DNA of 64,000 nucleotides. It comes from Curtobacterium sp. MCPF17_052. Its GTDB lineage: Bacteria; Actinomycetota; Actinomycetes; Actinomycetales; Microbacteriaceae. The stretch spans positions 62,001-126,000 of the forward strand of contig NZ_QKSD01000004.1 of NCBI RefSeq assembly GCF_003234085.1. The letters run 5' to 3'. Positions within the stretch are counted from its first letter, which is position 1. Every line of letters starts with the position of its first letter. Below the pieces are notes generated by a model. It had not been told where the DNA came from. It worked only from the letters and a program-made list of their open reading frames with translations, and did not search any database. The translations under genes were made by a program, and so were the position numbers. Shown piece after piece: positions 6,077 through 64,000 of the stretch.

Positions 6077-6802
6077 TCAGAAGAGCGAGTGGCCGCCGTC
6101 GACGGAGAGCGTCTGTCCGCTCACCCAGCCGGCGTCCGGGGCGACGAAGAACGACACCGCGCGGGCGATGTCGTGCGGCGTGCCGGTGCGACGGACGGCG
6201 ATCCGTTCGACCAGGGCACGCTGCCCCTCGGGTCCGTAGGAGTCCCACTGCGCCTGCGTGGTCGGGTTCGAGAGCACGAACCCCGGTGCGATGCAGTTCG
6301 CGGTGATGCCGTGCGGACCGAGTTCGTGCGCCATCTGCCGGGTGAAGCCGATCTGGGCGGCCTTCGCCGCGGTGTAGGCCTGGATGCCGGTCAGGCTGAC
6401 GCTCCGCCCGGCTCCGGAGGCGATCATCACGATCCGGCCCCACCCCCGCGGCTTCATGCTCCGGACCGCGGCGCGGGTGCAGTTCCGTGTGGTCGTCAGG
6501 TTGGCGTGCAGGACGGCGTCCCACGCCTCGTCGCTGAGTTCGTCGATCGGCGTGTGGGTCTGGCCGACGACCCCACCGGCGACGTTCACCAGGACGTCGA
6601 CGGGGCCGAGCCCGGCGAACCACGCGTCGGTGGCCGCGGTGTCACTGAGGTCGACCTCGCTACGGTCGACCCGGTGCACGAGCGCACCGTCGGCGGCGAG
6701 CCGGTCCGCGATGCCGGATCCGATGCCCTGGGCCGCTCCCGTGACGACCGCGACCCGACCGTCGAGGGTCTCCACGGGCCTCCCGGCCGGCGCGGCGCTC
6801 AC
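6077..6802 (-). CDS. Short-chain dehydrogenase/reductase (SDR)
   Basis: 241 residues from GTG at 6802, whose first four bases GTGA overlap the stop of the RpiR-type gene, indicating translational coupling. Classical SDR: TGAAQGIG cofactor motif (residues 21-28), NVAGG, catalytic Ser near 129, YTAAK catalytic pair (Tyr143, Lys147), and a C-terminal DGGHSLF typical of the FabG/oxidoreductase group. It probably oxidises or reduces a hydroxyl/keto group of a product of the operon. The exact substrate cannot be read from sequence. Confidence 0.85.
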   Translation of the reverse strand: MSAAPAGRPVETLDGRVAVVTGAAQGIGSGIADRLAADGALVHRVDRSEVDLSDTAATDAWFAGLGPVDVLVNVAGGVVGQTHTPIDELSDEAWDAVLHANLTTTRNCTRAAVRSMKPRGWGRIVMIASGAGRSVSLTGIQAYTAAKAAQIGFTRQMAHELGPHGITANCIAPGFVLSNPTTQAQWDSYGPEGQRALVERIAVRRTGTPHDIARAVSFFVAPDAGWVSGQTLSVDGGHSLF

Positions 6803-7743
6803 AGCGCCCCCTCGGTGCCCGGCAGGGCGAGCGCCTCGACGTTCCCGGCTCCGACCTCGCGGGGTCCGGTGTCGTCGCGGACGTCCTCCTCGGCATGGGC
6901 AGCACGGGAGGCGCGCGTGATCCGCACCGACTCCTCCCACTGCCGCATCCGCTCCAGCCCGCGAGGTCCGGCGGCGCGCAGCACACCCTCGACCAGGGCC
7001 TCGATGAGCACCAGCAGCGGCGTCATCGAGTCGAACGGGATGCCGTCGACGGTGACCGGGAGCACGATGTCGGCACTCTCGACCACGGGCGACAGCGACG
7101 TGTCGGTGATGAGCAGCACCGTGGCACCCTGGCGCTTCGCGGCGGCCGCCGCCTGCTGTGCGACGAGCTCGTGCCGGCGGAAGTCCATCACGACCACGAC
7201 CCCGCCCTTGCCGAGCTGCAGGAACCGGCCGACGTCGTGGCCGAGCGGTTCAGCCACGAAGTCGACGTTCGGCAGGATCTGGTCGAGTTGCGCGGCGAGC
7301 ACCATCGCGAAGTACCGGCTGAAGTACCCGCCCAGCAGCGCGACCTGCTTGGGACGGTCGGCGAGCACGGCGACCGCCCGGTCGAACTCGCTCGGCGGGA
7401 CGCTCGTGCCGAGCGACTCCACGAGCGCGACGCGGTCCGCGATGGCGCGGCCGAGCGTGCCGCCGTCGCCGAGTGCGATGCCCTCCTGCGAGCGGCGGAG
7501 CGGGCTGTTGAGGTGGTCGGCGATCTCGTCACGGACCCGTGCCTGGAATTCCGGCCAGCTGCCGAACCCGAGGCGGCTCGCGAGCCTCAGGACCGTCGGC
7601 GTGCTCGTCCCGGCGGTGCGGGCGAGGCTCGCGGCGCTCTCCGTCCCGGAGGTGGGCCATGCGGCCAGCAGTGCGCGGGCGACCTTGCGCTCCGCCGGGC
7701 TCAGCTCGTCCATGCGGGCGAAGACCTCGTCGTTGATGGGCAT
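6799..7743 (-). CDS. RpiR/MurR-family transcriptional regulator (HTH + SIS)
   Basis: 314 residues from ATG at 7743 (GAGGAG upstream). The N-terminal ~80 residues form the RpiR helix-turn-helix (LSPAERKVARALL ... TSTPTVLRLASRLGF). Residues ~125-260 form a SIS domain (VALLGGYFSRYFA ... VVVMDFRRHE) that normally binds phosphosugars. Family members control sugar, amino-sugar or muropeptide genes, with the SIS ligand as inducer. It is embedded in the peptide operon and is the obvious candidate local regulator. A SIS-domain regulator in a peptide operon hints at a ligand containing a sugar, such as a muropeptide, but this is inference. Confidence 0.88.
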   Translation of the reverse strand: MPINDEVFARMDELSPAERKVARALLAAWPTSGTESAASLARTAGTSTPTVLRLASRLGFGSWPEFQARVRDEIADHLNSPLRRSQEGIALGDGGTLGRAIADRVALVESLGTSVPPSEFDRAVAVLADRPKQVALLGGYFSRYFAMVLAAQLDQILPNVDFVAEPLGHDVGRFLQLGKGGVVVVMDFRRHELVAQQAAAAAKRQGATVLLITDTSLSPVVESADIVLPVTVDGIPFDSMTPLLVLIEALVEGVLRAAGPRGLERMRQWEESVRITRASRAAHAEEDVRDDTGPREVGAGNVEALALPGTEGAL

Positions 7744-13765: not shown

Positions 13766-15331
13766 CTACTTGGCCTTGGAGACGTCCTCGAGCTGGTAGT
13801 TGCCGAGGGGCGTCACGTGGAAGTCGTTGACCTTGTCGGTCGTCGCGAACACGTAGGGCGAGTAGTAGAGGTACGCCAGGAAGGCGTCGTCACCGGTCTT
13901 CTGCTGCAGTTCGGAGTAGAGCTCCTGCCGCTTGGCCGGGTCGGTCTCCTGCTGTGCCTTCTTGTTGATCGCGAGCACGTCCGGGTTGTCGTAGTGCGTG
14001 AAGGCCGAGTTCGAGCCGCCTTCGGGGTCGACGGCGAACGAGGTCCACTCGTCGGGGTCCGGGATGTCCATCGTCCAGGCGGACCAGGCCATGTCGAAGT
14101 CGCCGGCGAGTCGGGCTTCCTTGTTCGCCGTCGGGTCGAGCTGCTTGATCTGCATCGTGATGCCGATCTCCTTGAGCTCGGACTGCATGATCTGCGCGAT
14201 GGAGGTCTGGTTCGGGTCACCCGACCGGATGAGCAGCGTCGTCGTGAACCCGTTCGGCTTCGACGACTTCGCCAGCTCGGCCTTCGCCTGCTTCACGTCG
14301 TACGTCGGCCCGTCCGCCTTCGCGTCGTAGTACGGCGTACCGGGCGACAGCAGCGAGTTCGCGGTCGTGCCGTTGCCGAACAGCACGGCCTTGACCATGG
14401 CCTTGCGGTCGAGTGCGTACGCGATCGCGCGGCGCACGTGCACGTCGTCGAAGGGCTTGCGCTGCTGGTTGAAGGCGACGTAGTCGATCTGCGTCGACTT
14501 GAACGTCTCCGCGTTGACGCCCGATGCCGACTTCAGCGACGAGAGGCTCGACCAGTCCGGGGTGTCGTCGATGTCGACCTGGCCGCCCTGCACCTGGAGC
14601 TTCCGGGTGTTGGCGTCCGGCACGACGGTCCACTTGACGCCGTCCAGGTACGGCTTGCCCTTCTGCCAGTAGTCGTCGTTGGCGGTGAGGCTGAGCGACT
14701 GGCCCTTCTTCCACGAGTCCCAAACGAACGGTCCGGTGCCGATGGGGTGGGTGTAGAACTCCTTCTTCGACTCCCCCGCGTAGTCCGCCGGGACGATCGC
14801 GTTGCTGAAGAGGGACAGGTCGGCGATGAGCGGTGCCCACGCGTACTTCAGGTCGATCTCGACCGTCTCGTCGTCGACGGCGCTGACCTTGTCGATCGCC
14901 GCGTTGATGTAGCCCCAGCCGGACGCCCCGGTGGCGGTGTCGGCGTCGATGGAGAAGACGACGTCCTTCGCGGTCATCGGGTCCCCGTTGGAGAACTCGA
15001 CGCCCTTGCGGAGGTGGATCGTGTACTTCTTGCCGTCCTCCGACGCGTCGTACCCGGTGGCGAGCCACGGCTCGAGCTTCTTGCCGTCTGCACTCACGTT
15101 GAACAGCGGTTCCATGATCTGCTGCATCACGTGGATGGAGTTGTTGTCGAAGGTCGTGGTGTTGTCCATCGAGATGATGTCGGCGGACCGCGCCATCGTC
15201 AAGACACCGCCCTTCGGGTGGCCGCCGGCCGCGGTGCCGGTGTCCGCCGAGCCGCCGGCGCTGCAGCCCGCGAGGACCAGGGCCGCTGCCGCCGTCACCG
15301 CGGCCAGGGCCGCCCGATTCCGTTGTCTCAT
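13766..15331 (-). CDS. Peptide ABC transporter substrate-binding lipoprotein (family 5)
   Basis: 521 residues from ATG at 15331 (MRQRNR, GAGG upstream). A signal peptide ends in lipobox LVLAGC, so the mature protein is anchored by lipidated cysteine. The SBP-5 body is clear (GGVLTMARSADIISMDNTTTFD; FDDVHVRRAIAYALDR; late domain with DPDEWTSF). It captures the peptide outside the cell and defines the substrate range. It is the first gene of the 12-gene operon. Confidence 0.93.
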   Translation of the reverse strand: MRQRNRAALAAVTAAAALVLAGCSAGGSADTGTAAGGHPKGGVLTMARSADIISMDNTTTFDNNSIHVMQQIMEPLFNVSADGKKLEPWLATGYDASEDGKKYTIHLRKGVEFSNGDPMTAKDVVFSIDADTATGASGWGYINAAIDKVSAVDDETVEIDLKYAWAPLIADLSLFSNAIVPADYAGESKKEFYTHPIGTGPFVWDSWKKGQSLSLTANDDYWQKGKPYLDGVKWTVVPDANTRKLQVQGGQVDIDDTPDWSSLSSLKSASGVNAETFKSTQIDYVAFNQQRKPFDDVHVRRAIAYALDRKAMVKAVLFGNGTTANSLLSPGTPYYDAKADGPTYDVKQAKAELAKSSKPNGFTTTLLIRSGDPNQTSIAQIMQSELKEIGITMQIKQLDPTANKEARLAGDFDMAWSAWTMDIPDPDEWTSFAVDPEGGSNSAFTHYDNPDVLAINKKAQQETDPAKRQELYSELQQKTGDDAFLAYLYYSPYVFATTDKVNDFHVTPLGNYQLEDVSKAK

Positions 15332-53498: not shown

Positions 53499-54257
53499 GT
53501 GACCTCCCCCGCTGCCGCGCTCGACCCGGCGACCCGGCCCCCGCAGGACCTGACCACCCGACCGTGGTGGCACGCGCTCGGGGTGTTCGACCTCGAGACG
53601 ACCGGGATCGACGTCGAGACCGCGCGGATCGTCAGCGCACACGTCGGCCTCATCGACATGACCGGCCGTTCCATCGTCGAGGGCAGCTGGCTCGCCGACC
53701 CCGGCGTCGAGATCCCCGAGCAGGCCGCGGCGGTGCACGGCATCACGACCGAACGCGCCCGTGCCGACGGACGCCCGGCCGGCGAGGTCGTGGCCGAGAT
53801 CGTCGCCGCGGTCGAGGCCGTGTTCGCCCGCGGCATCCCGCTGGTGATCTACAACGCCCCCTACGACCTGACGCTGCTCGACCGGGAGGCCAAGCGCCAC
53901 GGGATCGCCTCCCCCGTGATCGGCAACGTGGTCGACCCGTTGGTGATGGACAAGGCGCTCGACACCTACCGGAAGGGCAAGCGGACGCTCGAGGTCGCGT
54001 CGCAGCTCTACGGCGTGCAGCTCGACGACGCGCACGACGCCGGTGCCGACGCGATCGCCGCCGGTCGGGTCGCGCAGGCGATCGCCGCCAAGTACCCCGA
54101 CGAACTCGGCATCAGTGCCGAAGAACTGCACCGCAAGCAGGTGACGTGGTGCTCCGAGCAGGCTGCGTCGTTCCAGGAGTACATGCGGGGCAAGCGCGAC
54201 CCCTCGTTCACCGCCGACGGCCGCTGGCCCCGACGGCACTCGGCCCCGAGCATGTAG
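53499..54257 (+). CDS. 3-prime-5-prime exonuclease (DnaQ-like, DEDDh)
   Basis: 252 residues from GTG at 53499; TAGCCT (53487-53492) 6 nt upstream indicates leaderless. ExoI FDLETTGID, ExoII YNAPYDLTLL, ExoIII HDAGADAIAAG: the DEDDh set. Acts on DNA ends; an epsilon-like proofreading or RNase T-type role cannot be separated from sequence. It ends 91 bp before the ter cluster begins but is probably independent of it. Confidence 0.88.
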   Translation: MTSPAAALDPATRPPQDLTTRPWWHALGVFDLETTGIDVETARIVSAHVGLIDMTGRSIVEGSWLADPGVEIPEQAAAVHGITTERARADGRPAGEVVAEIVAAVEAVFARGIPLVIYNAPYDLTLLDREAKRHGIASPVIGNVVDPLVMDKALDTYRKGKRTLEVASQLYGVQLDDAHDAGADAIAAGRVAQAIAAKYPDELGISAEELHRKQVTWCSEQAASFQEYMRGKRDPSFTADGRWPRRHSAPSM

Positions 54258-54348: not shown

Positions 54349-55479
54349 GTGTTCCTGAAGACCTTCGGGTGGTCCCTGGCCATCACCGTGCTCGCACTGG
54401 CCATCGCGCTGGTCTACGGCGGATGGAGCGCGGTCATCATCACCGCGATCCTCGGCGTGCTCGAGATCAGCCTCAGCTTCGACAACGCGGTCGTCAACGC
54501 CCGCATCCTCGAGCGGATGAACCCGTTCTGGCAGAAGATGTTCCTGACGGTGGGCATCGTCATCGCCGTCTTCGGCATGCGCGTGCTCTTCCCGCTGCTC
54601 ATCGTCGGCGTCACGGCGTCGCTGAACCCGGTCGAGGCCGTGCAGCTCGCTCTCGAGAAGGGGCCGATCGACGAGCCCGGCACGTACGCGTACCTGCTCC
54701 ACGAAGCGCACCCGCAGATCGCGGCCTTCGGCGGCATGTTCCTGCTGATGATCTTCCTGGACTTCATGTTCGAGGAGCGCGACATCCTCTGGCTGCGCTG
54801 GCTCGAGCGCCCGTTGCTCTTCATCGGCAAGCTCCCGATGGTCAACGTCATCGTCGCCCTCGTGCTGCTGGCCGTCGCGGGCACCACCGCCGGCGAGCAC
54901 CAGTCGACGGTCCTCGTCGCGGGCATCGCCGGCCTCGTCACGTACTTCCTGGTCACCGGACTCGGCGGGCTGTTCGACGTCGACGACCCGGAGGACGACG
55001 GCAACTCGTTCGAGAGCACCGGCGAGATGGTCGCCGAGGCGAACCGCATCAGCAACAAGCGCCGCGTCGGCAACGTCGCCGGCAAGGCCGCGTTCCTGCT
55101 GTTCCTCTACCTCGAGGTCATCGACGCGTCGTTCTCGTTCGACGGGGTCATCGGCGCCTTCGCGATCACCGCCGACCCGATCATCATCGCGCTCGGTCTG
55201 GGCCTGATCGGTGCCCTGTTCGTGCGTTCTCTCACCGTCTTCCTGGTCCGACAGGGCACGCTGGACGAGTTCGAGTACCTCGACCACGGGGCGCACTGGG
55301 CGATCGGTGCTCTCGCGGCGATCCTGCTCGTCACGATCACCACCGAGGTGAACGAGGTCGTCACCGGCCTCATCGGCGTCGTCTTCATCCTCGCCGCGTT
55401 CATCTCCTCGGTGGTCCGCAACAAGCGCAAGGCCGGCGACCACGAGCCGGCAGACGACCACGCAGCCGTCGCCTCCTGA
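54349..55479 (+). CDS. TerC/DUF475-family membrane protein
   Basis: 376 residues from GTG at 54349. About nine membrane helices. The first contains the TerC acidic motif EISLSFDNAVVNA, repeated in the second half as EVIDASFSFDGVIGAF, the two expected ion-interacting sites. TerC-family proteins lie in tellurite-resistance clusters and are linked to metal handling and protein metalation. It leads the ter gene series and is 40 bp from the first TerD. Confidence 0.92.
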   Translation: MFLKTFGWSLAITVLALAIALVYGGWSAVIITAILGVLEISLSFDNAVVNARILERMNPFWQKMFLTVGIVIAVFGMRVLFPLLIVGVTASLNPVEAVQLALEKGPIDEPGTYAYLLHEAHPQIAAFGGMFLLMIFLDFMFEERDILWLRWLERPLLFIGKLPMVNVIVALVLLAVAGTTAGEHQSTVLVAGIAGLVTYFLVTGLGGLFDVDDPEDDGNSFESTGEMVAEANRISNKRRVGNVAGKAAFLLFLYLEVIDASFSFDGVIGAFAITADPIIIALGLGLIGALFVRSLTVFLVRQGTLDEFEYLDHGAHWAIGALAAILLVTITTEVNEVVTGLIGVVFILAAFISSVVRNKRKAGDHEPADDHAAVAS

Positions 55480-55519
55480 CGGTCGCGACGACTGCACCAC
55501 CGACGAAGGGTTCACCGCA

Positions 55520-56107
55520 ATGGGTCTCAGCCTCCAGAAGGGCCAGGCGCTCTCGCTCACGAAGACCGACGGCAGCGCACTGACGCGCGTCCGTCTCGGT
55601 CTCGGGTGGGACGCCGTGGCGACGAAGCGCGGACTGTTCGGCGGCAAGAAGTCCGCGGACGTCGACCTCGACGCCTCGGCGGTCTTCTTCGGCGCCGACG
55701 GCCAGCCCGTCGACTACGTCTGGTTCAACCAGCTCCGCAGCAAGGACGGCTCGGCGCAGCACACCGGTGACAACCTGACCGGTGAGGGCGACGGCGACGA
55801 CGAGGTCATCCGCATCGACCTCAGCGCGGTGCACGGCGCCGTGCAGCAGATCGTCTTCGTCATCAGCAGCTACAGCCGGCAGACGTTCGACAACGTGCAG
55901 AACGCGTTCTGCCGGGTGGTCGACGACTCGACCGCCGGTGCGCCCGAGGTCGCCCGCTACCAGCTGACCGACTCCGGGCAGCACACCGCGATGGTGATGG
56001 CGAAGGTGTCCCGCACCGGAGCAGGATGGACCTTCACGGCGATCGGCGAACGTGCCGACGGCCGGACGGTGCAGGACCTGGTCGGTCCCGCGGCCGCCGC
56101 GCTCTGA
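55520..56107 (+). CDS. TerD-family protein (TerZ-like)
   Basis: 195 residues from ATG at 55520. TerD jelly-roll with calcium-site residues: DLDAS near 49-53 and the acidic loop [13 protein letters not shown] (83-95), plus VWFNQL. TerD proteins bind Ca2+ and are thought to sense metal or other stress at the membrane. The first of three close paralogues. An insertion [11 protein letters not shown] before the calcium motif is specific to this copy. Confidence 0.92.
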
Positions 56108-56136
56108 CGGCACCCCACCAGACGGAAGGACGACCG

Positions 56137-56718
56137 ATGGCGACCCTCTCGCTCTCGAAGGGCAACAACCTCTCCCTGACCAAGACCGACCCGGGGCTGC
56201 GACGCGCCATGATCGGCCTCGGCTGGGATCCGCGGACGACGGCCGGCGAGCAGTTCGACCTCGACGCCTCGGCCCTGCTGGTCGGTGCGAACGGCAAGGT
56301 CCGCTCGAACGACGACTTCATCTTCTACAACCAGCTGCAGTCCGTCGACGGTTCGGTCGTCCACCAGGGTGACAACCGCACCGGCGAGGGTGACGGCGAC
56401 GACGAGCAGATCCTCATCGACCTCGACCTGGTCTCCGCCGACGTCGCCCGGGTGGTCATCGTCGTCACCATCGACCAGGCCGACGCCCGCCACCAGAACT
56501 TCGGGCAGGTGCGTGGCGCCTTCTGCCGGGTCGTCAACGACGAGACCGGCAACGAGGTCGTCCGCTTCGACCTCACCGAGGACGCCGCGTCGGAGACCGG
56601 CATGATCTTCGCCGAGATCTACCGGTACGACGGCGAGTGGAAGTTCCGCGCGGTCGGCCAGGGCTACGCGACCGGCCTCCGCGGCGTCGCGACCGACTAC
56701 GGCGTCGTCCTCGACTGA
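56137..56718 (+). CDS. TerD-family calcium-binding stress protein
   Basis: 193 residues from ATG at 56137 (GGAAGGA upstream). DLDAS (41-45), DFIFYNQ (60-66), [13 protein letters not shown] (78-90) are all intact, so it should bind Ca2+. Closest relative of the following gene, showing tandem duplication. Confidence 0.94.
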
Positions 56719-56761
56719 CGGTCAGACGACCTCCCTCCCCCACAACCGAAAGGACCCGATC

Positions 56762-57340
56762 ATGGCCGGACTCTCCCTCAGCAAGGGCGGCAACCTCTCC
56801 CTCACGAAGACGAGCCCCGGGCTCACCGTGGCCACCGTCGGCCTCGGCTGGGACCCGCGCACCACGGCCGGCGAGGCGTTCGACCTCGACGCGTCAGCGC
56901 TCCTGGTCGGTCCCGACGGCAAGGTGCGCTCGGACGCCGACTTCATCTTCTACAACCAGCCCAAGAGCGCCGACGGATCCGTCGAGCACAAGGGCGACAA
57001 CCGCACCGGTCAGGGCGACGGTGACGACGAGCAGATCGCCATCGACCTGCAGAGCCTGCCGGCCGACGTGGACCGTGTCGTCGTCGTGGTCTCGATCGAC
57101 CAGGGCGAGGCTCGTCGACAGAACTTCGGCCAGGTCCGCAGCGCGTACTCCCGCGTGCTCGACCAGGACGGCGCCGAGATCGTCCGGTTCGACCTCTCCG
57201 AGGACGCCGCCCCCGAGACCGCGATGATCTTCTCGGAGATCTACCGCAGCGGCGCCGAGTGGAAGTTCCGCGCGGTCGGCCAGGGCTACCAGTCCGGTCT
57301 CGCCGGCGTCGCGACGGACTTCGGCGTCAACCTCAGCTGA
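56762..57340 (+). CDS. TerD-family calcium-binding stress protein
   Basis: 192 residues from ATG at 56762. DLDAS (41-45), FIFYNQ and [13 protein letters not shown] (78-90) are intact. It is about as similar to the previous TerD as family paralogues are and ends VNLS. A 75-bp spacer with a tandem repeat separates it from telA. Confidence 0.94.
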
Positions 57341-57353
57341 CCCAGCGCACGAC

Positions 57354-57393
57354 CAGCAGCACCCAGCAGTTCCCAGCAGCACCCAGCAGTTCC
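57354..57393. repeat. 20-bp tandem repeat upstream of telA
   Basis: Two perfect copies of CAGCAGCACCCAGCAGTTCC (57354-57373, 57374-57393) lie in the terD-telA spacer, with the ribosome site ACAGGAG just beyond. Internally each unit also repeats CAGCA. Confidence 0.9.
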
Positions 57394-57415
57394 ACCTCGT
57401 CACAGGAGACCACCG

Positions 57416-58636
57416 ATGCCCGGACCGCTCGCTCCGCCGGAGCCCACCGACCCGTCGCAGGACGCCCTCGTCCTGCGTGCTGCCGACGCTGCCGAGGTCG
57501 TCACCCCGGAGGACGCTCCGGGCATGGTGCCGGTGGACGCGGACCGGCAGGCGCAGATCGCGGCCCAGGCCCGGGAGTTCGTCGACGAGGTCGCCCGGCT
57601 CGACCCGCGGTCCCCCGCGTTCACCGAGAAGGTCGACGGCATCAACGCGATCGCCGGATCCGAGATCGCCCGGTCCGGCGGGTTCTCCTCGCGCATGCTC
57701 GAGCGCTCCCAGTCGTCGGTCGCCGGTGCCAAGCGGACCGGGGACGGCACGCAGGTCAAGGTCGCCACCACGCTCGGTGACCTGCGGTCCACGGTCGAGG
57801 ACCTGACGCCGAACGCTGCCGACCTCAGCACCGGCCGGAAGATCCTCGGCATGATCCCGGGCGGCAACAAGCTGGCGAAGTACTTCCAGCGCTACGAGTC
57901 CGCGCAGACCCAGCTCGACCACATCATCAAGTCCCTGATGGCCGGGCAGGACGAGCTCCGTAAGGACAACGCGACGCTCGCCGACGAGAAGGTCCAGCTG
58001 TGGGAGACCATGCAGCAGCTGAGCGAGTACGCGGTGTTCGCGAAGGCCCTGGACGCGGCGACGGTCACCAAGATCGAGAGCCTGCGGAACGGCGGCCGCG
58101 TCGACGAAGCGCAGAAGCTCGAGTCCGACGTGCTGTTCCCGGTGCGGCAGCGCCACCAGGACATCCTGACCCAGCTGGCCGTGTCGGTGCAGGGCTACCT
58201 GGCGATGGACCTGGTCCGGAAGAACAACACGGAGCTCATCAAGGGTGTGGAGCGCGCCCGCACCACGACGATCGCGGCGCTCCGGACGGCCGTCGTCGTG
58301 GCCCAGGCCCTGGCGAACCAGAAGATGGTCCTCGACCAGATCGACGCGGTGAACAACACCACGAACGCGATGATCCTGCAGACCAGTGAGATGCTGCGTG
58401 ACCAGACCACGCGGATCCACGAGCAGGCGACGAACTCCGGTGTCAGCGTCGAGACCCTGCAGAAGGCGTTCGACAACGTGTTCCAGACGATGGACGCGAT
58501 CGACTCGTTCCGCTCGCAGGCGGCACAGAACATGTCCTCCACCGTCTCGGCGCTCGAGTCCGGCATCCAGCGCGCCAAGCCTTACCTGGAGCGCGCGCGC
58601 CAGACCGACGACGACCCCCGATCGGTCACGCGATGA
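57416..58636 (+). CDS. telA: TelA family toxic-anion resistance protein
   Basis: 406 residues from ATG at 57416. The TelA/KlaA helical body is clear: QILGMIPGGNKLAKYF-type core (IPGGNKLAKYFQRYESAQ), LWETMQQLSEYAVFAKALD, VSVQGYLAMDLVRKNNTELIKGVERA, VALQNQKMVLDQ. Long coiled-coil helices and no membrane span. TelA confers tellurite and other stress tolerance with TerD proteins; its mechanism is unknown. Confidence 0.93.
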   Translation: MPGPLAPPEPTDPSQDALVLRAADAAEVVTPEDAPGMVPVDADRQAQIAAQAREFVDEVARLDPRSPAFTEKVDGINAIAGSEIARSGGFSSRMLERSQSSVAGAKRTGDGTQVKVATTLGDLRSTVEDLTPNAADLSTGRKILGMIPGGNKLAKYFQRYESAQTQLDHIIKSLMAGQDELRKDNATLADEKVQLWETMQQLSEYAVFAKALDAATVTKIESLRNGGRVDEAQKLESDVLFPVRQRHQDILTQLAVSVQGYLAMDLVRKNNTELIKGVERARTTTIAALRTAVVVAQALANQKMVLDQIDAVNNTTNAMILQTSEMLRDQTTRIHEQATNSGVSVETLQKAFDNVFQTMDAIDSFRSQAAQNMSSTVSALESGIQRAKPYLERARQTDDDPRSVTR

Positions 58637-58654
58637 CCCCTGCGGTCGGCTGCC

Positions 58655-59227
58655 GTGCATAATCGCCTGCGCGCGCTGTTCGGCCGCGACGACGACGACC
58701 AGGACCGACGGGTGCCCGACCCGGACGCCGAGACGCCGTCGTCGGCTGCAGCTGCTGCAGCGGCCCGCATCGACGTCCGGGGTTCAGGTGGCGCGGCCGA
58801 CGACGCTGCAGCCGCGGCCGGGCTCGACGACCTCCGGACCATCGTGCGCGCGGCCGGAGCCGATCTGCCGACCGTCGTGTCCTCGCGCGTCCGACACGTC
58901 GAGGACCTCCTCCGGGAGGCCGCCGGCACCGTCATCGCGCGTGGCGCCTCGACCGAGCAGCGGTACCTCTTCCAGGCCATCGTGAACGACTACCTGCCCA
59001 CGCCCGTCCGGACGTACCGCTCGCTGCCCGCGGCGGACCGCACGCCGGAGAGCGCAGCCACGGCGACCCTCGCCGGCCAACTCGACGTCGTCGCGGAGAC
59101 GGTGGAGGACATGCACGAACAGATCAGGAGCGGTGCCATCGCCGAACTCTCCTCGCACGGCCGGTTCCTGCGGGACCGACTGGGCGACGGCGACGAGGGC
59201 CTGCGCCTCCGCGGAGCCGACTCGTGA
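58655..59227 (+). CDS. XpaC-like helical protein, TelA partner
   Basis: 190 residues from GTG at 58655, 18 bp after telA. An acidic/Ala-rich disordered first third, then a helical domain with RYLFQAIVNDYLPTPVRTYRSLP and a coiled coil (LAGQLDVVAETVEDMHEQI). In Bacillus, xpaC lies next to a telA gene (yaaN), and this domain is reminiscent of XpaC. The assignment is by context plus a weak motif match. Its end overlaps the next gene by 4 bp. Confidence 0.6.
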   Translation: MHNRLRALFGRDDDDQDRRVPDPDAETPSSAAAAAAARIDVRGSGGAADDAAAAAGLDDLRTIVRAAGADLPTVVSSRVRHVEDLLREAAGTVIARGASTEQRYLFQAIVNDYLPTPVRTYRSLPAADRTPESAATATLAGQLDVVAETVEDMHEQIRSGAIAELSSHGRFLRDRLGDGDEGLRLRGADS

Positions 59228-59784
59228 CCGGGCAGCTCGTCCCGGGAGCGAACGCTGCGCTGACGGCCGAGAACCCCGGCCTCACCGCGGTCGTCGTCGG
59301 CATCCACTGGGACCAGATCGCCAGCCGCGGGCCCTCGGCCGAGCTCGTCCCGGTGGCGATCGTCTGCGGCCCGGACGGGCACGTGCTCTCCGACGAGGAC
59401 CTCGTCTTCTTCAACCAGATCGAGAGCGCCGACGCGTCCGTCCGGTACCTGGCCGAGTCCGACCAGGAGGAGATCGACGTCGACTTCGCCTCGATCCCCG
59501 ACGTCGTCGACAAGATCGTCTTCGCGGTCTACCTGGACCCTGACCCGCGGTCCCCGAAGGACCTCGGCTCGGTCCGGTCGATGTCGGTCCGCGTCTGCGC
59601 GCCCGACGGTCGCGAACTCGTCGCGTTCCCGCTGCCGTCGGAGCGGAACCACCTGATCGACGCGGTGATCCTCGGCGAGCTCTACCGCCACCGCTCGGAG
59701 TGGAAGTTCCGCGCCGTCGGCCAGGGGTACACGACGGGTCTGACCGGCCTCCGCACCGACCACGGCATCGGCCGCGCGCGATGA
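59224..59784 (+). CDS. Degenerate TerD-like protein without calcium site
   Basis: 186 residues from GTG at 59224. The TerD frame is kept ([37 protein letters not shown]), but DLDAS has become LVPVA (41-45) and the GDN-acidic loop is AESDQEEI. It should therefore not bind Ca2+ in the same way. It may act as a partner of the intact TerDs. Coupled on both sides by 4-bp overlaps. Confidence 0.85.
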   Translation: MTGQLVPGANAALTAENPGLTAVVVGIHWDQIASRGPSAELVPVAIVCGPDGHVLSDEDLVFFNQIESADASVRYLAESDQEEIDVDFASIPDVVDKIVFAVYLDPDPRSPKDLGSVRSMSVRVCAPDGRELVAFPLPSERNHLIDAVILGELYRHRSEWKFRAVGQGYTTGLTGLRTDHGIGRAR

Positions 59785-60644
59785 CGACGGGGCACCCGTT
59801 CCTCCGCCGTCGCGTCCGTCCGACCCCGCCCGGCCAGGAGGCCCGCCCGACCGCCGCCACGTCCGGCACCGCCACCACGTCGGGCACCACCGCCACGCCC
59901 GGCGTGCCGCTCCGCCGCCCGACCCCGCCCGCCGGAGCGCCCGTGGCATCGGCACCGGCCGCGCCCGCCAGCTCCGGCGGCGGGCTGAGCCTGTCCTCCG
60001 GGCGGCAGCCCGCACCGTCGACGGTCCGCATGCCGGCGCAGCGCAGCTCGACCGCACCGTCGGCCTCCGCGGCCGCCCCCGGCGCGACCCCGCCCCGTTC
60101 CGACCGTGTCGCACGTCGACTGCGGGAACGGGCCTCCCGGATCCGACCGTTCCCCGCACCGGACCCCCGCGACGTCCGCGTGCTCGGACCCGAGGACCCG
60201 GTGGTCCGCATCGACCGTCGCCGCTCCGCCGTCGGAGCACTCCGGATCACCGGTTCGACGAGTGCTGCGTGGGAGTCGGTGGACCACGTCGTCGGTGCTG
60301 CGACCGCGGACGGCGCGACGGCCGGACGCGCCGTGTCCACGCGCGGCAACCGCCCCCTGGTCGGCTACGACGGCTCCGACGTCCTGATCGCCCTCCGCCA
60401 CGTCCGCGAACTGCGGCGGGCACTCGTGATGGGTCGCGGACCGGACCGGCTCGTCGTCGCCTTGCACGACGGCACCACCCTCGCGATGGCCACCGGAGAC
60501 CCGGACACCACCACGATCCTGGCGCTCTCCGTCATCGACGGTGAACTCGAGCTCCGCGCCGAGCCGTTCCCCAGGGCCACCCACGACGGCGACGTGTTCG
60601 CCGCGTTCGGGTTCGTCCTGTCCGCCCCGACCGTCGGAGTCTGA
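59781..60644 (+). CDS. Proline/alanine-rich protein with divergent TerD/TerF-like domain
   Basis: 287 residues from ATG at 59781. Residues 1-120 are a disordered Pro/Ala/Thr/Arg-rich region (PTPPAGAPVASAPAAP). From ~125 a beta-rich domain (VRIDRRRSAVGALRI ... VLIALRHVRELRRALVMGRGPDRLVVALHDG) resembles the C-terminal half of TerF/TerA-type proteins. Role unknown; stands between TerD and biosynthetic genes. Confidence 0.6.
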   Translation: MTTGHPFLRRRVRPTPPGQEARPTAATSGTATTSGTTATPGVPLRRPTPPAGAPVASAPAAPASSGGGLSLSSGRQPAPSTVRMPAQRSSTAPSASAAAPGATPPRSDRVARRLRERASRIRPFPAPDPRDVRVLGPEDPVVRIDRRRSAVGALRITGSTSAAWESVDHVVGAATADGATAGRAVSTRGNRPLVGYDGSDVLIALRHVRELRRALVMGRGPDRLVVALHDGTTLAMATGDPDTTTILALSVIDGELELRAEPFPRATHDGDVFAAFGFVLSAPTVGV

Positions 60645-60647
60645 TCC

Positions 60648-61814
60648 GTGCGCCACTTCGCCAACATCGCCGATCAGGAACCGCTCTTCCTCAGACCACC
60701 GGAGGACGTGACACGGGAGAGCCCGCAGGACCTCCGCGCGGTGGCACTCGGGGCGACCCTGTACACGCCGGGGATCCGGCCGGACCTGGTGCGTGACGTC
60801 CGACGGCAGACGGAGCTCGGCGCGGGGTCGATCGTCCTCTGCCTGGAGGACTCCGTCGCCGACGACGACCTACCCGCGGCCGAGGCGAACGTCGAGGCCG
60901 CGCTGCGGACCCTCGCTGAGGAGCTCGACACGGCGACGCTGCCGCAGCTGTTCCTCCGGGTCCGGACGCCGGAGCACTTCGCACGGCTGCTCGACCGCTT
61001 CGGCAGTCGGGCGCTCGACGTCCTGGCCGGGATCGTGCTGCCGAAGTTCGAGGACCCCGACGGTGCCGGCGCCGCGTGGTTCGAGGTCCTCGACGCCGCG
61101 AACGAGGGTCGGGCACCCGGCCGCCGTCTGCTCGTGATGCCGATCCTCGAGTCCCCCGCGATCATGCACCGTGAGTCGCGCACCGAGGCCCTGGCCGACG
61201 TCCACGACCTGCTGCTCGAACGACGGGACGACGTCCTGGCGGTGCGCATCGGGGCGACGGACCTGTCGAGCGTGTACGGCCTCCGGCGTCCCTCGCACCT
61301 GACCGTGTACGACGTGCAGGTGTTGGCGTCCGTGATCGGCGACGTGGTCAACGTCCTCGGTCGGGCGCGGGACGGCTTCGTGGTCGCCGGGCCGGTGTGG
61401 GAGCACTACCCCGACTCCGACCGGGTGTTCCGCACGCAGTTGCGCACCACGCCGTTCCAGGAGGCCGGGGACCTCAGACTCCGTCGGCAGCTGCTCCTGG
61501 AGGGCTTCGACGGGCTCCTCCGCGAGGTCACCCTCGACCGCGCGAACGGCCTGACCGGCAAGACCGTCATCCACCCGCGCCACGTTCCCCTCGTCCACGC
61601 GATGTCGGTGGTCAGCGACGAGGAGTTCTCCGACGCGTCCGACGTCCTCGCGAACGCCACGGGTGGGGTCGCCGCCTCCCGCTACGGCAACAAGATGAAC
61701 GAGATGAAACCGCACCACGCCTGGGCGGAGCGGACCATGCTCCGCGCCCGGGCGTTCGGTGTGGCCACCCCGGACGTGACCTACGTCGACCTGCTCGAGC
61801 GGAGCCTCCCGTGA
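60648..61814 (+). CDS. CitE/HpcH-HpaI-like lyase of the ter module
   Basis: 388 residues from GTG at 60648, 3 bp after the previous stop. A TIM-barrel aldolase/citryl-lyase with LYTPGIRPDL, LCLEDSVADDDL (Mg-binding acidic), LVMPILESPAI, IGATDLSSVYGL and GKTVIHPRHVPLVHA. In published analyses of ter gene neighbourhoods a CitE-like aldolase recurs with phosphoribosyltransferases and ATP-grasp ligases in a nucleoside-like pathway. Overlaps the next gene by 4 bp (GTGA). Confidence 0.88.
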   Translation: MRHFANIADQEPLFLRPPEDVTRESPQDLRAVALGATLYTPGIRPDLVRDVRRQTELGAGSIVLCLEDSVADDDLPAAEANVEAALRTLAEELDTATLPQLFLRVRTPEHFARLLDRFGSRALDVLAGIVLPKFEDPDGAGAAWFEVLDAANEGRAPGRRLLVMPILESPAIMHRESRTEALADVHDLLLERRDDVLAVRIGATDLSSVYGLRRPSHLTVYDVQVLASVIGDVVNVLGRARDGFVVAGPVWEHYPDSDRVFRTQLRTTPFQEAGDLRLRRQLLLEGFDGLLREVTLDRANGLTGKTVIHPRHVPLVHAMSVVSDEEFSDASDVLANATGGVAASRYGNKMNEMKPHHAWAERTMLRARAFGVATPDVTYVDLLERSLP

Positions 61815-64000
61815 CCACGACCACCTCGACGACCGCGATGCCGGACGCCGCCCTGCCGAGCCCGGAGGAGCTCGGCGTGGTCCTGACCGACGCGCCGATC
61901 GTGCCCACCGCACCCGGCGTGCCGCTGGCGTCGCTCGTCCGGCTCGCACTCCGTCGGAACCCCCGACGGGCGCACCTGCTGGTGTCCACCGTGCTCGCGA
62001 AGCACGTCCCGACCGTGCCCGCGGTCGCGCTCCTCGCCGGTGAGGCGCTCGGCGCCCGGGTCGCCGACGTCCTGGACGGCGGTGCGCGGCTCGACGCCGG
62101 CGCCGCCGCGCGCCTCCGGGCCGTGCTCGACCGCCAGCAGGCGACCGACGTTGCGGGCGACGGGTCCGATGCCCTGCACCGGGCCGCGACGACGCTCCGC
62201 ACCGACCTCGCCGCGGTCCGGCCGACCCTGGCCGACGTCCTCGTCCTCGGGTTCGCCGAGACCGCGACCGCCCTCGGCGCGACGGTCGCCGAGGCCCTCG
62301 GTGCCGGGTACCTGCACTCGACGCGCCACGACCCGCCCGGGGCGACGCCGGCCGCCGGCTTCGACGAGGCGCACTCGCACGCCACGGCGCACCGCCTGCT
62401 GCCCGCCGAGGACGACTGGCTGCCGGCCGACGGCACCGTGGTCCTGGTCGACGACGAGCTGAGCACCGGAGCGACGGCCCGCGCCACGATCCGCGCCCTG
62501 CACGCCGTCGCACCGCAGCGACAGTGGGTCGTCGCCGCGCTCGTCGACCTCCGCTCCGACGCGGACGTCGCCGCCACCGAGGCCCTCGCGACCGAGCTCG
62601 GCGCGCCCGTCGCGGTCGTCGCCCTCGGCCGCGGCCGCGTCTCCCTCCCGGACGGTCTCACCGTTACGGCAGCGGAGCTCGTCGCCTCGGCCGCGGCGCC
62701 CCTCACCACGACGACGCCGGACCGCACGACGTCATCCGACGGCACCACCCCACCGGACGGCACGACGGCACCGGACCGCGGACCGACCGCGGACGGGAGG
62801 CCCGCACCAGGCCCGGCACGCGCCTCCCGTCCCGACGCGGTCACCGTCGTCGCCGCCCCGCCGACCGCCGTCGACCGCACCGGGACGCCCGCCGCACGCG
62901 TCCGCACCCCGCGGACCGACGTCGAGGGCATCGCGGCCGACCTCGCCCGGGTCCTGACCGACACGTCCGGCCGGGTGCCGGACCGGGTCCTGGTCCTCGG
63001 GACCGAGGAACACATGGCGACGCCACTCGCCGTCGCGGACGCACTCCGCCGTCGGACGACGGCGGACGTCCGGTCCTCGACGAGCACCCGCTCCCCCGTC
63101 GCGGTGTTCGACGCCCCGGCCTGGCCGATCCGGTCCGGCATCCGGCACCGGTCCCACGACGTCACGGTCGACGGTCCCGGCGAGCGGTACGCGTACAACG
63201 TGCACGGCTTCGACGCGGTCGTCGTCGTCCCCGAGCCGGGCACCGGACGATCGTCGCTCGAGGGTCCCGACGGCCTGCTCGACGTCCTGGCCACCGTGAC
63301 GCCCCGGGTGCTGCTCGTGGACAGCGCCCTCGAACCCGCCGGTGCTGCCGCGTCCTCGCCCCGTCCGCTCACCGGGCCGTCCTTCGGGTCGTACGAGCCG
63401 GACGAGGTGACCTGGCTGCTGCAGGACCTCGCCGACGCCGCCCTCGAGGCCGACACCGCCGACCGGGAACGCGCCACCCAGCTCGAGGGCGCCAACTACG
63501 CGGAGTCGCTGCCCGTCGAGTACGTGCCGTCGGAGTCCTACGAGGAGCTGTACCGGGAGGCCCTCACGCGATCTGCGGAGCGGATCGCGGAGGCGGTCGG
63601 GATCGTCACGGACCTGGTCCTCCTCGACCGGCCGGACGCGGTGCTCGTCTCGCTCGCGCGCGCCGGGACGCCCGTCGGGATCCTGATGCGCCGGTGGGCC
63701 GAGCAGCAGCGCGGTGTCCGGCTGCAGCACTACACGGCGAGCATCGTCCGCGGGGTCGGCATCGACGAGACGGCCCTCCGCTGGCTCGCCGCGCACCACG
63801 ACGCGTCCCAGGTCGTCTTCGTCGACGGGTGGACGGGCAAGGGCGCCATCACGCGCGAGCTGACCGACGCGCTCGACCGGTTCGCGGCCTCCGACGGCGT
63901 GCGCTTCGGCGACGGACTCGCGGTCCTCGCCGACCCGGCCGGCTGCACACCGCTGCACGGCACCCGCGACGACTACCTGGTGCCGTCGGCCTGCCTCAAC
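61811..64000 (+). CDS. Phosphoribosyltransferase-TRSP-StiP fusion of the ter module (partial, runs off the right edge)
   Basis: 730 codons from GTG at 61811, still open at the edge. Residues ~20-330 form a type I phosphoribosyltransferase domain with PRPP-loop LVDDELSTGATA (212-223). A linker follows holding a 44-bp palindromic element (62790-62833). Residues ~365-505 are the TRSP domain, with the eponymous TRSP at 426-429 and a Tyr/His-rich end (YAYNVHGFD). From ~523 (SYEPDEVTWLLQDL) comes a StiP cysteine-protease-like domain with SLARAGTPVGILMRR and, near the end, VDGWTGKGAIT. In many genomes StiP is a separate gene, so this looks like a fusion. It likely makes or attaches a nucleoside-like product. 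Confidence 0.88.
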   Translation, partial: MTTTTSTTAMPDAALPSPEELGVVLTDAPIVPTAPGVPLASLVRLALRRNPRRAHLLVSTVLAKHVPTVPAVALLAGEALGARVADVLDGGARLDAGAAARLRAVLDRQQATDVAGDGSDALHRAATTLRTDLAAVRPTLADVLVLGFAETATALGATVAEALGAGYLHSTRHDPPGATPAAGFDEAHSHATAHRLLPAEDDWLPADGTVVLVDDELSTGATARATIRALHAVAPQRQWVVAALVDLRSDADVAATEALATELGAPVAVVALGRGRVSLPDGLTVTAAELVASAAAPLTTTTPDRTTSSDGTTPPDGTTAPDRGPTADGRPAPGPARASRPDAVTVVAAPPTAVDRTGTPAARVRTPRTDVEGIAADLARVLTDTSGRVPDRVLVLGTEEHMATPLAVADALRRRTTADVRSSTSTRSPVAVFDAPAWPIRSGIRHRSHDVTVDGPGERYAYNVHGFDAVVVVPEPGTGRSSLEGPDGLLDVLATVTPRVLLVDSALEPAGAAASSPRPLTGPSFGSYEPDEVTWLLQDLADAALEADTADRERATQLEGANYAESLPVEYVPSESYEELYREALTRSAERIAEAVGIVTDLVLLDRPDAVLVSLARAGTPVGILMRRWAEQQRGVRLQHYTASIVRGVGIDETALRWLAAHHDASQVVFVDGWTGKGAITRELTDALDRFAASDGVRFGDGLAVLADPAGCTPLHGTRDDYLVPSACLN
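62790..62833. repeat. 44-bp palindromic element, copy D, inside the fusion gene
   Basis: The same 44-bp length and outer arms (CGGACGGGAGGCCCG ... CGCCTCCCGTCCC) as the intergenic copies, with five arm mismatches. It is translated in the linker between the phosphoribosyltransferase and TRSP domains (GRPAPGPARASRP) and keeps the frame open. Confidence 0.75.

Follow-up and report, generated by a model that had tools for sequence, protein, structure and literature searches.

A Curtobacterium ter gene cluster without ATP-grasp that may couple metal-linked sensing to a PRPP-based ribosylated signal

A ter stress gene cluster of Curtobacterium sp. MCPF17_052 lies at the right end of the DNA stretch analysed here (the window: 64,000 nucleotides, bases 62001-126000 of contig 26, from a genome of 3.54 Mb that is 76.6% complete). 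The locus was read beyond the right window edge (locus L005) to define the 3′ end of the cluster, which comprises eleven plus-strand genes at 54349-65328 and extends 1.3 kb beyond the window (Table 1). Judged by its gene content, the cluster represents an actinobacterial variant of the ter biosynthetic module already known, and not the classical form, because no ATP-grasp gene is found at the locus. On balance we lean towards reading it as a stress operon that joins a metal-linked sensing arm to a pathway for a ribosylated signal built from phosphoribosyl pyrophosphate (PRPP).

Anantharaman, Iyer and Aravind (2012) reportedly proposed, from comparative genomics, that ter modules make a nucleoside-like metabolite tied to metal stress. 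This proposal of a ter biosynthetic module is restated in the accessible parts of PMC8115787 and PMC7824862. An earlier note on this DNA, made from its letters alone, held that product and trigger had, as far as its author knew, never been put to experiment; this agrees with the literature searched, where titles and the starts of abstracts of the papers listed, with most subscription papers outside the search and hence no proof of absence, revealed no experimental work on the module's product. In the mechanism proposed here, the DUF475/TerC, TerD1-3, TelA and XpaC-like products would form a membrane-linked, metal-dependent sensing arm, and the C-C bond lyase would supply or trim a small carbon acceptor, both roles being suggested by family membership. 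PRTase_2, and perhaps StiP, would take up the phosphoribosyl group of PRPP, and the HAD phosphatase would strip the 5′-phosphate to give a ribosylated signal, either nucleoside-like or a ribofuranoside. TerD4 and g288, both without the acidic motifs of metal type, would bind a ligand independently of metal or serve as scaffolds. As encoded at this locus, the pathway would run without an ATP-grasp ligation step.

The genes follow the order DUF475/TerC, TerD1, TerD2, TerD3, TelA, g190, TerD4, g288, C-C bond lyase, fusion and HAD, with intergenic spacing of -4 to 91 bp and four 4-bp overlaps. Identities were assigned with Pfam for ten of the proteins, and with NCBIfam and motifs for the HAD. The near-continuous plus-strand run of at least ten ter genes described in the earlier note, some with 4-bp overlaps, comprises eleven, and its continuation past the right edge was borne out: the end lies at 65328, and the PELOTA and HAD expected there are both present, PELOTA as a domain of the fusion protein itself and the HAD as a gene whose family score falls under the cut-off and whose motifs are intact. 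Pfam matches to DUF475/TerC, TerD, TelA and C-C_Bond_Lyase uphold the TerC-family, triple TerD, TelA and lyase calls, and the suspected phosphoribosyltransferase (PRTase)-TRSP-StiP fusion matched both the TRSP and StiP models in addition to PELOTA. Directly after the HAD come a strong hairpin, with a folding energy of -37.5 kcal/mol over 60 bases, and then rpmE2 on the opposite strand, so we place the end of the ter unit at the HAD. The genes present, their order and close spacing, and their all-or-none occurrence at one site are read directly from sequence; the eleven genes probably form one operon.

An ATP-grasp partner, expected downstream by the earlier note, is absent from the locus. Across the whole assembly the ATPgrasp_Ter model gave a single partial match (30.8 bits), in a 1242-aa frame ~84 kb away that appears to be CarB-like, and the same model also fires in 13 of 14 control genomes. 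By tblastn, two ATP-grasp queries, one taken from the P. putida cluster and one from that of Deinococcus, matched 3/3 Pseudomonadota/Deinococcus loci and 0/108 actinobacterial StiP loci, some of which cover only 5 kb. An unlinked ATP-grasp gene may lie in the missing part of the genome. Strong ATPgrasp_Ter matches (114-127 bits) occur in 10 of the 25 searched genomes with an actinobacterial StiP, nine Streptomyces and one Actinacidiphila (G154, G155, G156, G158, G159, G160, G162, G164, G168 and G169), and tblastn placed none of them inside the fetched StiP loci. In S. coeruleorubidus (G164), the only complete chromosome among the ten, ATPgrasp_Ter would lie ~5 Mb from StiP. These ten genes are possibly part of a second, classical ter cluster.

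The fusion joins four predicted domains in one protein, modelled by AlphaFold2 with a mean predicted local distance difference test (pLDDT) score of 84.7. PRTase and StiP share a single open frame in 20 of the 25 loci holding both (own and fetched relatives) and in 70 of 77 such named genome loci drawn from the best 80 of 577 relatives. Pfam and NCBI name StiP a cysteine protease, as does the product name on plasmid records, and one possible reading, which we consider quite unlikely, is an operon in which a nucleotide-type signal is coupled to the cleavage of some target protein. C728 does not vary among 63 aligned fused proteins, and both H640 and H753 are kept in 39/39 StiP sequences (35 chosen of 107 actinobacterial loci plus four plasmid loci), as a protease might require. 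However, no cysteine column is invariant across these 39: the best are C712 (37/39) and C728 (35/39), the latter position holding Ile in the sequences of Enterobacter cloacae and of Pseudomonas putida, and Ala in Deinococcus and in L038, a divergent Curtobacterium copy. Many of the invariant residues cluster in three stretches with a PRPP-loop-like layout. The best structural match of the predicted StiP region is CriT, a PRTase-fold, PRPP-dependent ribofuranosyltransferase partnered by a HAD phosphatase, and P0073, which shares all four domains, bears in one source a name starting 'Phosphoribosyl transferase (PRTase)...'. As a lead, a PRPP-using enzyme seems the more probable identity of StiP, ahead of a protease.

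The likeness to CriT/CrpP of the Haemophilus influenzae type b (Hib) capsule polymerase Bcs3 would comprise a predicted PRTase-type fold, the three-loop layout and the HAD phosphatase partner. It has limits: no sequence similarity to CriT was found, the helical HB-2 insert of CriT is without counterpart, and the loop-1 Asp is missing. Where CriT carries a split acidic pair (D680/E818), StiP has an invariant D672 in loop 3 and no acidic residue in loop 1, the loops being paired by order only. The Curtobacterium HAD, unlike the CriT/CrpP partner, is nearest to trehalose phosphatase among solved structures (E 3e-23); its motifs are intact in 13/13 sequences. In a Foldseek search with the whole fusion, the 50 matches listed, given without the part of the fusion that they cover, are nucleobase PRTases and PyrR. 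A StiP-PELOTA profile compared with the PDB gave only weak L7Ae matches to the PELOTA part (E 0.3). In a more far-reaching hypothesis, which we regard as doubtful, proteins named 'cysteine protease StiP' would be PRTase-fold, PRPP-dependent ribosyltransferases that act with the adjacent HAD in two CriT/CrpP-like steps. On this view two PRPP-dependent steps and the C-C lyase would yield the ter metabolite, a small molecule bearing a ribofuranosyl group, in Actinobacteria without ATP-grasp ligation, and TerD4 and g288 would read it independently of metal.

Comparison with known systems separates the shared core from the variable parts. In the Pseudomonadota/Deinococcus module (Enterobacter cloacae pECL_A, P. 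putida pNY5709-IMP, Deinococcus radiophilus pRadio2), as in Curtobacterium, genes for PRTase, StiP, C-C lyase, HAD and TerD/TerC-type proteins are adjacent. Those three loci also carry ATP-grasp, which in E. cloacae was seen by tblastn alone, and encode PRTase and StiP as separate genes, whereas the Curtobacterium locus has no ATP-grasp and a fusion; in their gene tables, which are incomplete, TerB is listed in two, vWA in two and TelA in none. Streptomyces and Mycolicibacterium StiP loci share with Curtobacterium TerD, DUF475, C-C lyase, PRTase-TRSP, StiP-PELOTA and HAD, and no ATP-grasp was found in them; Mycolicibacterium differs in that PRTase and StiP are split. The enterobacterial terZABCDEF operon has in common TerD paralogues and a TerC-superfamily protein; its TerB and TerF (vWA) have no equivalent among the ten Pfam-scanned proteins of Curtobacterium, which has TelA and the XpaC-like gene instead. 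The earlier description of a ter stress cluster with a nucleoside-like module thus stands for the PRTase, TRSP, StiP, PELOTA, lyase and HAD set beside TerD/TerC and fails for ATP-grasp. StiP, a marker of the module, is found on 2567 of 72,556 plasmid records, mostly enterobacterial, and the one 901-aa protein with its HAD and lyase is the simplest set found here for in-vitro reconstitution.

The TerD paralogues differ in their acidic motifs. The DLDAS and GDNxTG acidic segments of TerD bind Ca2+. DLDAS/Q and GDNxTG are kept in TerD1 in 24/24 rows, TerD2 in 21/22 and TerD3 in 24/26, whereas TerD4, otherwise a clear TerD, is without both acidic motifs in 22/22. Three rows account for the TerD2 and TerD3 misses, two from L036 and one from L057; one L036 miss and the L057 miss adjoin the XpaC-like gene and resemble TerD4 equivalents. 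The other L036 miss, a protein of 707 aa that begins with a TerD domain, follows the HAD (14690-15220 of the reversed locus; a relative from another family). TerD2 matches the solved structures 2kxt (E 1.4e-78), whose title refers to calcium-binding properties, and 3ibz (E 1.3e-72). The reading of the TerD proteins as sensors in the earlier note is therefore only partly right, as TerD4 is without the acidic motifs and g288 is more divergent still.

For g288, no TerD Pfam match was found, Foldseek gave nothing at E 0.001, and hhalign against TerD gave E 0.003 with a probability of only 10%. Its C-terminal domain has a high-confidence structure prediction, and in a second comparison, with VIA, the top three structural matches were 9a6r_B (GLPD-SCP2; SCP2 is presumably a TerD-family protein) and two structures with TerD in their titles, 2qz7 and 2kxt. 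The gene is also present in L050 by tblastn. We name g190 only XpaC-like because the XpaC Pfam model (PF10112) matched 0/11 of its homologues, and nothing in its own genome, and the hhalign match to the XpaC family is weak (E 2.4e-4, probability 44%); in the alignment, g190 is without the membrane segment that one relative (L034) has. In the C-C lyase, E67, D68, R104, E168 and D205 are invariant across 9 sequences.

StiP occurs in 27 of 149 genomes, own included, of which 20 are Curtobacterium, and in 20 of 396 genomes sampled across the phylum, again own included, 19 of them above the cut-off. The relatives compared comprise 23 long loci (19 kb), 3 short ones and a further set, L060-L139, which is skewed to close relatives since it holds the best 80 of 577 (L061 and L039 are apparently one contig). 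The full gene order is kept in 18 Curtobacterium loci at the same site. Lyase, PRT, TRSP, StiP, PELOTA and HAD are present in all 62 loci of the best-80 set longer than 20 kb, and the commonest pattern there (57 of 80 named loci) is TerD, DUF475, lyase, fusion and HAD without TelA. TelA itself was detected in 24 of 66 Curtobacterium genomes, all 20 StiP carriers and four others. These patterns bear on a further explanation, an ordinary tellurite-resistance operon with the biosynthetic genes as passengers. TerD, TerC and TelA are known tellurite-resistance families, and terZ-F in trans was enough for tellurite resistance in E. coli MG1655, according to the accessible part of PMC8115787. Yet in Curtobacterium TelA and the biosynthetic genes are gained and lost together, the four solitary TelA aside, and the biosynthetic core stays beside TerD/TerC in distant Streptomyces loci of the best-80 set that lack TelA, so we consider this explanation very unlikely.

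The block behaves as an all-or-none unit at one chromosomal site. A block of 10.7-11.4 kb lies between exoDnaQ and rpmE2/ABC in 20 loci: our own, 18 from Curtobacterium and L035, a locus from another genus of the same family. ExoDnaQ is matched in 64 of 66 Curtobacterium genomes, with or without the ter block. The site is filled in 19 Curtobacterium genomes and empty in 12 others inspected (11 of 46 StiP-negative genomes and G029); in the empty sites exoDnaQ is followed by 439-1262 bp with rpmE2 (12/12) and next by the ABC gene, and nothing there matches a ter gene at E 1e-5. In G029 the chromosomal site is empty and a divergent copy, L038 (StiP identity 53%), lies elsewhere on a 567-kb contig. 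These carrier and empty genomes form natural pairs for comparison. That the block occupies this site in L035 as well suggests an old insertion, followed by repeated whole-block loss and exchange. The ter-gene tree mostly agrees with the flank-protein tree; L042/L043 group with L053 in one (Shimodaira-Hasegawa-like approximate likelihood ratio test, SH-aLRT, 99) and with L039/L044/L048/L050 in the other (95), a conflict that suggests some exchange of the block. On the flank tree, ter presence requires at least 8 changes, 6 of them forced by well-supported branches.

Several results weigh against the reading of a ribosylated-signal operon. Shuffled labels on the flank tree gave 9.8 changes, with 76/500 as low as 8; presence is therefore nearly as scattered as chance, and the block may be a dispensable niche trait. 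A relationship of StiP to uracil PRTase (UPRT) was tried by sequence profile and rejected: hhalign gave E 0.17 for UPRT and 0.14 for PRTase_2, no better than the HAD (0.28) and lyase (0.51) controls, which leaves a PRPP-enzyme role unsupported by profiles. TelA, the XpaC-like gene, TerD4 and g288, all present in Curtobacterium, were undetected in Streptomyces loci among the best 80 of 577, so that half of the cluster is not essential to the module. A C-C lyase is absent from the 19 kb retrieved for L038 (G029:C2:282584-301830), so the system may be able to do without one. Finally, PADLOC matched none of the 9 scanned proteins (of 11 in the cluster) at E 0.001. This last result bears equally on an anti-phage defence island, an alternative that we hold to be unlikely: phage resistance has been proposed for ter systems (PMC7824862, in the part accessible), and presence or absence at one site resembles an island, but an anti-phage use is unsupported here because PADLOC gave no match, and no integrase was noticed among the block open reading frames, where no search for att-type repeats was made.

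Table 1. Genes of the ter cluster and its borders (positions counted from the first base of the window)
Feature	Position	Strand	Remarks
DnaQ-like exonuclease (exoDnaQ)	53499..54257	+	Left boundary, outside ter block; DnaQ label from sequence reading, without family search
TerC-superfamily membrane protein (DUF475)	54349..55479	+	PF04332 421.9 bits, PF03741 60.5 bits
TerD1	55520..56107	+	PF02342 164.5 bits; acidic motifs intact
TerD2	56137..56718	+	PF02342 272.7 bits; nearest to solved TerD structures
TerD3	56762..57340	+	PF02342 264.2 bits
TelA	57416..58636	+	PF05816 283.3 bits
g190, XpaC-like helical protein	58655..59227	+	Weak hhalign match to XpaC family
TerD4	59224..59784	+	PF02342 150.1 bits; without DLDAS and GDNxTGxGDGDDE segments
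g288	59781..60644	+	Pro/Ala-rich N-terminus and highly divergent, predicted TerD-fold domain
C-C bond lyase (CitE/HpcH-like TIM barrel)	60648..61814	+	PF15617 374.3 bits
PRTase_2-TRSP-StiP-PELOTA fusion, 901 aa	61811..64516 (window ends 64000)	+	PRTase_2 PF15609 196.9, TRSP PF12500 71.8, StiP PF11202 309.2, PELOTA PF15608 115.2 bits
HAD phosphatase	64513-65328 (outside window)	+	4-bp overlap with fusion; NCBIfam HAD-IIB 28 bits, under 41.8 cut-off
rpmE2 (ribosomal protein L31, by sequence reading)	65399-65647 (L005:11399-11647; outside window)	-	Directly 3′ of ter block

Alternative L31 proteins are linked to metal. The rpmE2 gene stands beside the site in 19/19 other filled and 12/12 empty loci, and hairpin arms of 8-14 bp lie beside it in 31/31 loci, a count made without a random control; a similar hairpin is directly evident in the sequences of our own locus, L141, L142 and L147. 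No Rfam family reached its gathering score in L005 1-12600. Beyond rpmE2 come genes read as an ABC ATPase and then glgA/glgC. The site is flanked by a GH13 gene (trehalose-synthase-like by reading, ~51.8-53.5 kb) and the glgA/glgC-like genes (66.7-69.2 kb), a neighbourhood kept in the 12 empty sites.

Some individual loci depart from the common layout. In L040 the PRTase part is in a different frame from StiP and in L047 g190 is split over two frames, either real breaks or sequencing errors. Between its TelA and TerD4 genes, L038 carries an open reading frame that, from its DPPY motif, reads as DNA-methyltransferase-like. Around the four solitary TelA genes (L153, L154, L155 and L156; 51-53% identical), about 8-9 kb of sequence showed no further ter gene. 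Outside bacterial genomes, the faecal phage record MT836648.1 (15 kb, unannotated) encodes at 6281-7213 a C-C lyase that is 30% identical.

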